The notes beneath the pieces are model-generated. The model saw nothing but the letters and a program-made list of their open reading frames with translations. It made no database searches and was not told the origin of the DNA. Source: a virus. From it: a DNA stretch of 20,562 nt. The position numbers and the translations under genes were made by a program. Shown here piece after piece: positions 6,596 to 20,562 of this stretch (position 1 is its first letter; every line of letters starts with the position of its first letter). The stretch spans positions 1 through 20,562 of IMG/VR virus record IMGVR_UViG_3300024518_003750; one strand, given 5' to 3'.

Positions 6596-6997
6596 ATGTC
6601 TGCAGGACAAGTTCAGTGCGTAAACATCCAGGTCGACGAGGCCGCGGGTACCGATGACGAGATCTACTGGTCAAACCCGTTTCCGGGTACCTGGAAGATC
6701 GATGCCATCTACTTCGCGCCTGGGACCGCCCTGGCCATCAACGCTACCAACTACATCACGGTCACCGTCTCGTCTAACGACGGGGCAGCAGGCAGCGATG
6801 TGACCGTTGCCACACACAACACCAACACGGGCGGCACCGCGCATGTACTGAAGACCAACTTCGCGTTGACTCTTACGGCCGGGGTCGGCCTTGAGTTGGC
6901 CCAGGGCGAGGGTCTGAAGTTCGCTTCGGTCGGTACGTCGTCGGGTGGCGCTTGGGACGGTACCTACTGCGTGGCCATGACCAAGGTTCGGGTGTAG
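6596..6997 (+). CDS. Beta-rich capsid-associated (decoration-type) candidate, paralogue of 16119-16520
   Basis: This 133-aa protein is predicted to be mostly beta-strand, small and soluble, without signal peptide or TM segment. It follows the major capsid gene by 15 nt, has a strong AGGAG Shine-Dalgarno before the ATG, and sits where many siphoviruses encode head decoration or head-fibre proteins. It is clearly related to the 133-aa protein encoded at 16119-16520. Shared landmarks in the same order are IQVD.AA, W.ID...FAP, SNY/TNY, NDG..G.DV, HNT, G.GLK and W.G.Y. The function therefore has to suit both the head and the tail-fibre ends of the operon. A surface-exposed decoration or adhesion fold is the simplest inference, but no known family was identified with certainty. 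Confidence 0.7.
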   Translation: MSAGQVQCVNIQVDEAAGTDDEIYWSNPFPGTWKIDAIYFAPGTALAINATNYITVTVSSNDGAAGSDVTVATHNTNTGGTAHVLKTNFALTLTAGVGLELAQGEGLKFASVGTSSGGAWDGTYCVAMTKVRV

Positions 6998-16118: not shown

Positions 16119-16520
16119 GTGGCAAAGTTCACGCCCATGGGTCCGATCCAGGTCGACAAAGCAGCGAACCAGTCAGGCTACTACTGGCTTGCTATGCCTG
16201 CTAACGGGCACTGGCGGATCGATCGGGTGGACTTCGCGCCTTGTGAGACGACACCGCTCCACGCGTCCAACTACGTGACCTGTCAGGTGTTGGTCAACGA
16301 CGGCTTAGGGGGTGATGACGTGCTGATCGCCTCGCACAACACCAGCACCACAGGTGGTCAGCCCTTCGTGGTCAACCGCACTATTCGCGTCCACATGAGC
16401 GGATCGGAAGAGCTGCGCACGCTGAAGGCCGGTCAAGGCCTCAAAGTCCAGAACGTACCAACAGGGGCAGGCGCTAAATGGCGCGGGGCCTACACGATAT
16501 CGCTAACGGAGCTGCCATGA
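16119..16520 (+). CDS. Beta-rich protein near the fibre, paralogue of 6596-6997
   Basis: This 133-aa protein starts at a GTG one base after the preceding TAA. It shares the ordered landmarks of the capsid-adjacent 133-aa protein: IQVDKAA, WRIDRVDFAP, ASNYVT, VNDG.GGDDV, ASHNTSTTGG, AGQGLK and WRGAYT. The two genes even share the 12-nt word ATCCAGGTCGAC at the IQVD codons. Duplication within the genome is the simplest explanation. Since it lies directly upstream of the fibre with an ATGA overlap, it may attach the fibre or decorate the tip. Function unknown. Confidence 0.7.
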   Translation: MAKFTPMGPIQVDKAANQSGYYWLAMPANGHWRIDRVDFAPCETTPLHASNYVTCQVLVNDGLGGDDVLIASHNTSTTGGQPFVVNRTIRVHMSGSEELRTLKAGQGLKVQNVPTGAGAKWRGAYTISLTELP

Positions 16521-18550
16521 GTTCACGATCCCGCGCTATGGGAGCCTTCTATTCCTCTGCCCAGATCGAGCGGATTCTCAGCCGCACAGATCAGAAGGAC
16601 CCGGTAGCTACGGCAACGGTGTCCGGCGACGGCAACATCACGTTGAGCGGTGAGCAGACGATCAACGGCGTACTGACGTCGACCAGCCGAATCCTGCTCA
16701 CCGATCAGACTGCAGGCGCGGAGAACGTTATCTGGGTCACGGGTGCGTCTACATGGACCCGTCCCACCGACTTTGACCAGGATGACGAGGTGACCAACGG
16801 CGCCTCGGTCCATGTGGTCAACGCCAGCAGCACCTACGACCAGCACGAGTTCATCCTGTCGACTGCCGATCCCATCGTGGTCGGAACCACGGTGATCGCA
16901 TGGACCCAGATCAACCCCCTGGCGCTTCATGCTGCAAGCCATCTGCCTGCGGGTGGAGACGCTCTCACCACTGCTGCCCCAGGAGCCACAGGCGTAGCTA
17001 CGGCCAGCGCTGTAGGGGCGGCGGAGTCGTTCGCCAAGAGCGACCACGCCCATCAGAGCAACACCGCCCCAGCTGACTCAACCAAGGCAGCGGCCGCCAT
17101 CGGAACCAGCGGAGAGCCGGCGAGGGCAGACCACAAGCACGACATCACGACCGCTGCCCCGGGCGCCACAGGAGCAGCAACCGCAAGTGCAGAGGGTTCA
17201 GCAACCACGCTCGCAAGGTCCGACCACGCTCATCAGTCCAACACGGCCCCCACCGATACGACGAAGGCAGCGGCCGCCATCGGAACCAGCGGAGAGCCGG
17301 CGAGGGCAGACCACAAGCACGACATCACGACCGCTGCCCCAGGCACGTCCGGTCTTGGTGTCACCTCGGGGGACGGATCTGCTACCACCGTTGCACGTTC
17401 CGACCATACTCACCAGAGCAACACGGCACCAGTCAACAGCACGGCGGGCGCTGCGGCGAAGGGCACGTCAGGCGAGCCGGCTAGGGCGGACCACAAACAC
17501 CAGGTGGACGGTGCGGCCCCAGGGTCGACCGGGGTAGCTACAGCGTCAGCAGAAGGCAGCGCGGCCACTCTCGCAAGGTCCGACCACGCCCATCAGTCCA
17601 ACACGGCCCCCACCGATACGACGAAGGCCGCGGCCGCCATCGGCACGTCTGGAGAGCCAGCGCGAGCGGACCACAAGCACGACATCACCACAGCGGCACC
17701 ATCTGACATAGGCACCGCTAACGCCGAAGGGTCTGCAACGTCCTTGGCTAGGAGCGACCACACACACAACAACCCTCACGGCGTTGGGATCTTCGGTGAC
17801 GGTTCCGACGGGGTGGTCACTATCAGCGGCAACACGACGCTGACCGGTGACGTGTTCTATTCCACTCTGACCGTGCAAAGCGGGTTCACGTTGGACACAG
17901 ACGGCTATCGGGTGCACTGTTCGGGCACGCTGACGGTGGAGAGTACTGCCGTGATCAGCAACGACGGCAACGCGGCAGCCGCCGAGGTAGCGGGGGCAGC
18001 CAGATCATTTCGGGTCACGTGGGGTGGTTCTGCAGGCGGCACAGGCAGCACGGGAGCGGGTGCTAACGGTGGCGCTGGGACCAACGCTATCTACATCGGC
18101 GGCAACGGGGGCGCTGGTGCTAACGCAGCAGGCAACGGCGGGACCAGCAGCGCCTCAGGTTCGCCTGCTGGCGTCCATGGCCTACTGCATCCGGTCGTAA
18201 GCGGCGGGATCCTCCATGTGGCGACCGGGGGCGGCGCTGGGGGCGGAGACGGCGCATCGGGCAACGGCGGCGGCGGCGGCGGTGGCGCTGGCGCTGTACC
18301 GATCTACGCATTCAACCTGGTGAACAGTGGGTCTATCCAGGCGCTTGGCGGCGCTGGGGGTGCTGGGTCTGGGGCAGTCAACGCTGGTGGCGGCGCTGGG
18401 GGTGCTGGTGGACTCGTGTACCTGGTTACTCGCACGTCTACCGGGGCGGGCACCACGTCTGCTGCTGGTGGTGCTGGTGGCGCTGGGTCCGGATCCGGTT
18501 CTGCTGGCTCCACTGGCGGCGCTGGTGCCGTAGTCACCCTCACCATGTAG
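16517..18550 (+). CDS. Tail fibre / receptor-binding protein with DHxH repeats and Gly-rich C-terminus
   Basis: This 677-aa protein has four parts. Residues 30-132 form a common phage-fibre N-domain (SRILLTDQTAGAENVIWVT, TDFDQDDEVTNGA). HAASHLPAGGDAL (138-150) is a fibre linker. Residues 175-415 hold nine repeats of about 30 aa, each ending AR(S/A)DHxH or close to it, resembling the HxH metal-binding motifs known in the T4 gp37 needle. Residues 430-490 look like a beta-solenoid step (FYSTLTVQSGFTLDTDGYRV). Residues 500-677 are glycine-rich (GGNGGAG, GGGGGGGAG), recalling polyglycine-type adhesins such as S16 gp38. A trimeric shaft ending in a glycine-rich tip is inferred. The start is an ATG overlapping the previous stop (ATGA); an upstream ATG at 16478 lies inside that gene. 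Confidence 0.85.
   Translation: MSSRSRAMGAFYSSAQIERILSRTDQKDPVATATVSGDGNITLSGEQTINGVLTSTSRILLTDQTAGAENVIWVTGASTWTRPTDFDQDDEVTNGASVHVVNASSTYDQHEFILSTADPIVVGTTVIAWTQINPLALHAASHLPAGGDALTTAAPGATGVATASAVGAAESFAKSDHAHQSNTAPADSTKAAAAIGTSGEPARADHKHDITTAAPGATGAATASAEGSATTLARSDHAHQSNTAPTDTTKAAAAIGTSGEPARADHKHDITTAAPGTSGLGVTSGDGSATTVARSDHTHQSNTAPVNSTAGAAAKGTSGEPARADHKHQVDGAAPGSTGVATASAEGSAATLARSDHAHQSNTAPTDTTKAAAAIGTSGEPARADHKHDITTAAPSDIGTANAEGSATSLARSDHTHNNPHGVGIFGDGSDGVVTISGNTTLTGDVFYSTLTVQSGFTLDTDGYRVHCSGTLTVESTAVISNDGNAAAAEVAGAARSFRVTWGGSAGGTGSTGAGANGGAGTNAIYIGGNGGAGANAAGNGGTSSASGSPAGVHGLLHPVVSGGILHVATGGGAGGGDGASGNGGGGGGGAGAVPIYAFNLVNSGSIQALGGAGGAGSGAVNAGGGAGGAGGLVYLVTRTSTGAGTTSAAGGAGGAGSGSGSAGSTGGAGAVVTLTM
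17039..17752 (+). repeat. Four tandem 180-nt (60-aa) repeats in the fibre gene
   Basis: Copies begin at 17039, 17219, 17399 and 17579; the last is 6 nt short. Positions 17084-17160 and 17264-17340 are identical over 77 nt. The second and fourth copies are nearly identical at DNA level over about 70 nt. Each 60-aa unit contains two related half-units ending ADHKH and SDHxH. Such tracts can expand or contract by recombination, changing shaft length. Confidence 0.9.
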
Positions 18551-20329: not shown

Positions 20330-20562
20330 ATCCGTTCCCGCCCGTCCGTAGCCTCAGGCCCCGCCTCGAACCCCAGCTCCAGCAGCACGTCCCAAAGCAC
20401 CAGCCCCGCCTCAGCCCCCTGCCAGCGTGACCCCTCCATCGCCATCACGGAACCCGTCCCCGAACCCGCGCCCGTCCCCGTCCCCGAACCCGTCCCCGTC
20501 CCCGAACCCGTACCCGCCCCCATCGCCGAACCCGAACCCGAACCCGAACCCGCGCCCATCGC
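20330..20562 (+). other. Open Pro-rich frame continuing past the amidase TAG to the window edge
   Basis: The amidase frame stays open after TAG (20327-20329) to the end of the window with no ATG, GTG or TTG. It reads a Ser/Pro-rich stretch and then repeated EP/VP dipeptides from 20450. In another plus frame a GTG at 20427 would give an SP/NP repeat, and the minus strand reads GSGTG repeats. All three plus frames are open in the repeat part, so the coding frame cannot be decided. A readthrough linker to a distal domain, a separate gene with an unusual start, or noncoding low-complexity DNA are all possible. Confidence 0.4.
20441..20562. repeat. Hexanucleotide-type low-complexity repeat
   Basis: From about 20450 the sequence is built from GAACCC and GTCCCC blocks, with four tandem CCGAAC-type units near 20530-20552. 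It is strongly strand-biased (C-rich on plus) and runs off the window. Such tracts mutate by slippage and are prone to assembly error. Confidence 0.85.

Follow-up and report, generated by a model that had tools for sequence, protein, structure and literature searches.

The question raised by this locus is whether a phage fibre gene whose product carries nine DHxH motifs in a regular array encodes a shaft that is clasped by metal ions. The stretch of DNA that we analysed (hereafter, the window) comprises a complete IMG/VR virus record (20,562 bases) and represents a fragment of a tailed phage, which encodes the terminase large subunit, portal, tape measure protein and amidase endolysin. The fibre gene is located between the tape measure and tail genes and the amidase gene, in the tail-to-lysis part of the late module, and precedes the lysis-side genes. 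The start codon at 16517 shares the sequence ATGA with the stop codon of a small gene directly upstream, and translation could alternatively begin at an ATG further upstream, at 16478. In a comparison with PHROG, the protein matches phrog_11518, a tail fiber protein family (E 3.7e-14). The features of the gene are the following.

16517..18550, plus strand: whole fibre protein, 677 aa (open reading frame and translation; phrog_11518 match)
16589..16921, plus strand: N-terminal module, aa 25-135 (tblastn, AF2, BFVD)
16940..17780, plus strand: repeat shaft of nine 29-31-aa units, with R/K-x-D-H-x-H at the end of each
17039..17053, plus strand: motif 1, SDHAH
17126..17140, plus strand: motif 2, ADHKH
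17219..17233, plus strand: motif 3, SDHAH
17306..17320, plus strand: motif 4, ADHKH
17399..17413, plus strand: motif 5, SDHTH
17486..17500, plus strand: motif 6, ADHKH
17579..17593, plus strand: motif 7, SDHAH
17666..17680, plus strand: motif 8, ADHKH
17753..17767, plus strand: motif 9, SDHTH
17786..18013, plus strand: domain C-terminal to the shaft, aa about 424-499, limits approximate (phrog_13336)
18014..18547, plus strand: glycine-rich tip at the C-terminus, aa 500-677 (37% Gly, 20 GG pairs)

The nine motifs, five SDHxH and four ADHKH, which an earlier note on this DNA had placed at 17039-17767 on the plus strand, are located there exactly to the base. In the fibre protein, DHxH starts at residues 176, 205, 236, 265, 296, 325, 356, 385 and 414, with spacings of 29, 31, 29, 31, 29, 31, 29 and 29 residues. 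Nine such motifs in one protein are far beyond chance: among 20,000 shuffles of the protein, 18,932 contained no DHxH, 1,045 contained one and 23 contained two, with never more than two. The regular spacing of about 30 residues described in the same note holds, in steps of 29 and 31, but the array is not a succession of a single unit; rather, two alternating flavours of one unit (A-type and B-type) make up a super-repeat of about 60 aa (180 bp), which Tandem Repeats Finder detects in the window DNA as a 180-bp period with 3.6 copies. A single unit profile, which includes the fibre's own units, recognises nine of nine units with E-values from 3.9e-9 to 1.3e-14, and the fibre displays all the hallmarks of the unit, namely, Gly at position -9 and Arg or Lys at -2 (the Asp being position 0), D/N-H-x-H, a spacing of 29-33 residues and tandem arrangement. 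The shaft consists mostly of small residues, with 25% Ala and almost no aromatics. Since a typical short read exceeds the longest exact DNA repeat in the array (between 71 and 80 bp), the number of copies is probably correct. One contig matches the window at 99.9% identity over 4,405 bp but diverges from it inside the array; this divergence, confined to the final 46 bp of the match, may represent either real copy variation or an assembly fork.

Relatives of the repeat were sought by scanning IMG/VR and GTDB contigs, with duplicates removed; in the second viral scan, 80 of the 170 confirmed places were kept. The unit is present in at least about 70 other distinct proteins of viral or prophage contigs, with 2 to 28 units per protein among the relatives kept, and 283 of the 342 unit spacings in the collected proteins, the window included, fall between 28 and 35 residues, 31 being the commonest. 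An apparent preference for odd-numbered spacings, which would hint at strand register, was discarded because strict clustering reduced it from 159:43 to 31:22. A tblastn search for the repeat in named phages returned nothing, which is not to be read as absence because the low-complexity filter probably masks the repeat. The domains joined to the unit on its N- and C-terminal sides vary widely and are unrelated between relatives: two proteins (L056 and L077) combine the unit with a C-terminal Peptidase_S74 domain, a chaperone of trimeric fibres, whereas others carry a CBM_4_9 or lectin-like domain, or beta-helix and K1-lyase C-terminal domains. Among PHROG families, the relatives match some for tail fibres, tail spikes and head decoration. 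Such variety of partner domains, together with the fibre and spike matches, marks the unit as a mobile fibre module. The largest array observed is that of L030, an open reading frame of 1747 aa whose 28 DHxH units form groups of three (four in one group) with 68 or 173 residues between groups; it is the same design on a larger scale.

The gene position, the match to phrog_11518, the modular relatives and the presence of Peptidase_S74 in two of these jointly support the proposal of the earlier note that the array is a fibre shaft, and the gene product is very probably a modular phage tail fibre with a real, conserved shaft repeat. The N-terminal module has tblastn matches among structural proteins of Gordonia, Rhodococcus, cyanophages and others. 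Its AF2 model has a pLDDT of 88.6 and 85 BFVD matches at E<=0.001, although a search of the PDB with the fold gave no match; proteins that share the fold are annotated as tail fibres in some cases and as capsid decoration in others. Thus, as modelled, the module has a confidently predicted fold that is widespread among the tail-fibre and decoration proteins of phages, and probably serves as the fibre anchor. Downstream of the shaft, aa 426-508 match phrog_13336, a family of unknown function (E 7e-4). The glycine-rich tip, for which no relative was found in viral contigs or the PDB, recalls polyglycine-type phage adhesins.

The variation in unit number, the 180-bp DNA repeats, the attachment of the same units to unrelated end domains and the departure of the 99.9%-identical contig inside the array, albeit only at its very end, could also be accounted for if the array were chiefly a length spacer and a recombination cassette through which fibre parts are swapped or duplicated, the histidines being incidental. 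The pattern of substitutions speaks against this explanation. Among the A-type copies within the window, codon changes are mostly synonymous (e.g. 12 synonymous versus 2 non-synonymous), which shows selection on the protein frame; the B-type copies show a more mixed pattern of synonymous and non-synonymous changes. Between near-identical units from unrelated contigs, 11-20 of the 29 codons carry synonymous changes and 1-4 carry non-synonymous ones, an excess showing that long-term purifying selection maintains the protein sequence of the unit. With HxH invariant despite strong divergence at synonymous sites, the DNA is not being kept alike and the histidines are not incidental; the cassette explanation is accordingly improbable.

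Conservation of the motif itself was assessed with a motif-blind profile, for which the units were cut before R-x-D-H-x-H, run against the collected proteins. This profile found 331 units, and HxH follows in 331 of 331, a conservation that is somewhat selected for because many loci were found with patterns holding parts of the motif (these motif-containing patterns did not select the remaining units of those proteins). The residue that precedes HxH is Asp in 325 units (DHxH) and Asn in the remaining six (NHxH), all of which retain the Arg. R(-2), D(0), H1 and H3 are kept together as one block. In a set of 395 units, position -9 is always Gly, and large hydrophobic side chains cluster at -4 and +5 but are seldom seen at +4 or +6; this distribution would be expected if H1, H3 and residue 5 were on the same buried side of a strand. 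The resulting pattern, HxH-x-hydrophobic, is found in 151 of the 156 DHKH units of the relatives; the B-type units of the window have Ser or Asn at +5 instead of a hydrophobic residue.

HxH motifs contributed by three chains, with six histidines coordinating an octahedral iron, are known in R1/R2 pyocin fibres, T4 gp37, and the P2 gpV and phi92 spikes, and every solved phage fibre or spike HxH site of this kind cited in that work holds metal (PMC6116203). Of these, T4 gp37 (PF03335, Phage_fiber) is a trimer with six histidines per iron (PMC6116203, PMC11705849) and, like the fibre in the window, carries an HxH array, with seven iron sites. The HxH-x-hydrophobic pattern common to the DHxH units of the relatives recurs at five of the seven T4 sites; however, the T4 motifs are mostly GxHxH with irregular spacings of 32, 14, 37, 14, 9 and 9 residues, unlike the DHxH unit. 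The fibre protein has no match to PF03335 at E 0.1, whereas T4 gp37 itself does match, and homology between the DHxH unit and T4 gp37 was rejected, the best E-value of the unit profile being 1.7. The closer parallel in layout is the PTR repeat (PF12789) of Alteromonas phages R22Y and V19, with regular HxH motifs, one per repeat, as in the DHxH shaft; in R22Y, these have been modelled as iron-binding in a trimer, and up to 36 irons per virion have been proposed (PMC11705849). All five R22Y sites conform to HxH-x-hydrophobic. The PTR unit, however, is a 22-residue repeat, LxxxLxxKAxxxHxH, compared with 29-31 aa for the DHxH unit; neither the fibre protein nor its units match PF12789, which R22Y matches at 6e-24, and hhalign aligns only the four DHxH columns with a probability of 0.5%, so that homology to PTR was rejected as well. 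The remaining known sites are not tandem arrays: a single iron is buried in the shaft of the pyocin fibre, and P2 gpV and phi92 carry HxH at the tip of the spike (PMC6116203). The stem of the receptor-binding protein of Staphylococcus aureus phage phi11 contains an axial iron with six histidines, held by second-shell residues, at a single site, His42-X7-His50, where a coiled coil ends, unlike DHxH (PMC4901313). Thus, HxH arrays in phage fibres are already known, from T4 gp37 and the PTR repeats of R22Y, and the uniqueness ascribed to this array in the earlier note was overstated. The contrast with T4 drawn there is borne out inasmuch as the T4 array is irregular and not homologous, but regular fibres with one iron per repeat had been proposed before, for R22Y (PMC11705849).

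With both histidines present in all 331 units and HxH-x-hydrophobic shared with T4 gp37 and R22Y, we regard a metal-coordinated trimer held through HxH as the most plausible account of the shaft and, by analogy, as likely. Trimerisation is suggested by the fibre context and by the S74 partner in relatives; beyond that, we infer the axis-facing orientation of the histidines and the identity and role of the metal. In this model, the fibre would consist of the N-terminal module, the nine-unit DHxH shaft and the glycine-rich tip, with three chains probably winding together. At each unit, the HxH motifs of the three chains would meet at the three-fold axis, where six histidines would serve as ligands of one octahedral metal ion, most likely iron, giving up to nine metal ions stacked along the shaft. 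The invariant Asp or Asn that precedes H1, together with the Arg at -2, would probably form second-shell or inter-chain contacts that fix the histidines, and the metals would lock the register of the chains and stiffen or fold a shaft made of small residues.

The same conserved block can be interpreted differently. The repeat might be trimeric with a purely structural DHxH, in which hydrogen bonds and salt bridges between the Asp, Arg and His of different chains define each turn, with no metal in the virion. Conservation of R(-2), D(0), H1 and H3 as a block is what such a hydrogen-bond network would produce, a metal is not readable from sequence, and the AF2 model provides no geometry: for four units, with 30 aligned rows, the AF2 monomer has a pLDDT of 48.5 and no secondary structure, as expected of an obligate trimer, and gives no positive support. 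Nevertheless, the His pair is never replaced in the 331 units, even where Asp gives way to Asn, which is more ligand-like behaviour, and the solved phage HxH sites cited in PMC6116203 all hold metal; we therefore regard the metal-free alternative as unlikely, although it is the most serious of those considered. Still another possibility accepts the metal but assigns it mainly to recognising the host or delivering iron, with siderophore receptors detecting the metals of the shaft, the 'Ferrojan' or 'Trojan horse' scenario proposed for the HxH fibres of marine phages including R22Y (PMC11705849). Because buried sites would not be exposed, and the different tip and lectin domains that follow the repeat more likely carry receptor specificity, this role appears highly improbable, slightly more so than the cassette.

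Searches of PDB sequences with the protein, the unit, the unit profile and a four-unit profile detected no relative of the repeat, the single PDB match of the whole protein being a weak one to the lectin 6gxr, mostly within the N-terminal module. The fibre protein and its units have no match to any Pfam or NCBIfam model, and the unit has only weak matches in PHROG, the best of these being phrog_5231, a family of unknown function. By these comparisons, the DHxH unit belongs to neither Phage_fiber nor PTR and represents a third, hitherto uncatalogued type of HxH fibre repeat, which would function in the manner of the other two. Whether it also constitutes an independently evolved, widespread class of metal-binding fibre repeats, from which phages can build shafts of whatever length, burying one iron per approximately 30 residues, is a proposition to which we assign about even chances. 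If the metal-clasped reading is true, a common but unnamed repeat of environmental phages is a fibre shaft of this kind, many more phages would be suspected of carrying iron, stiff trimeric rods could be built by a simple modular design, and an invariant motif outside the Pfam and NCBIfam models would be explained.

Elsewhere in the window, the gene for the terminase large subunit (738-2102) is on the strand opposite to the portal, capsid and tail genes, and the contig ends, at 20450-20562, with a short tandem repeat with periods of 6, 18 and 24 bp. In addition, two paralogous 133-aa proteins are encoded at 6596-6997, adjoining the capsid gene, and at 16119-16520, adjoining the fibre gene; family searches with the latter, including PHROG, gave no meaningful match. 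The two share 37% identity over 123 aa (E 3e-27) and possibly represent a decoration protein that was reused at the tail.
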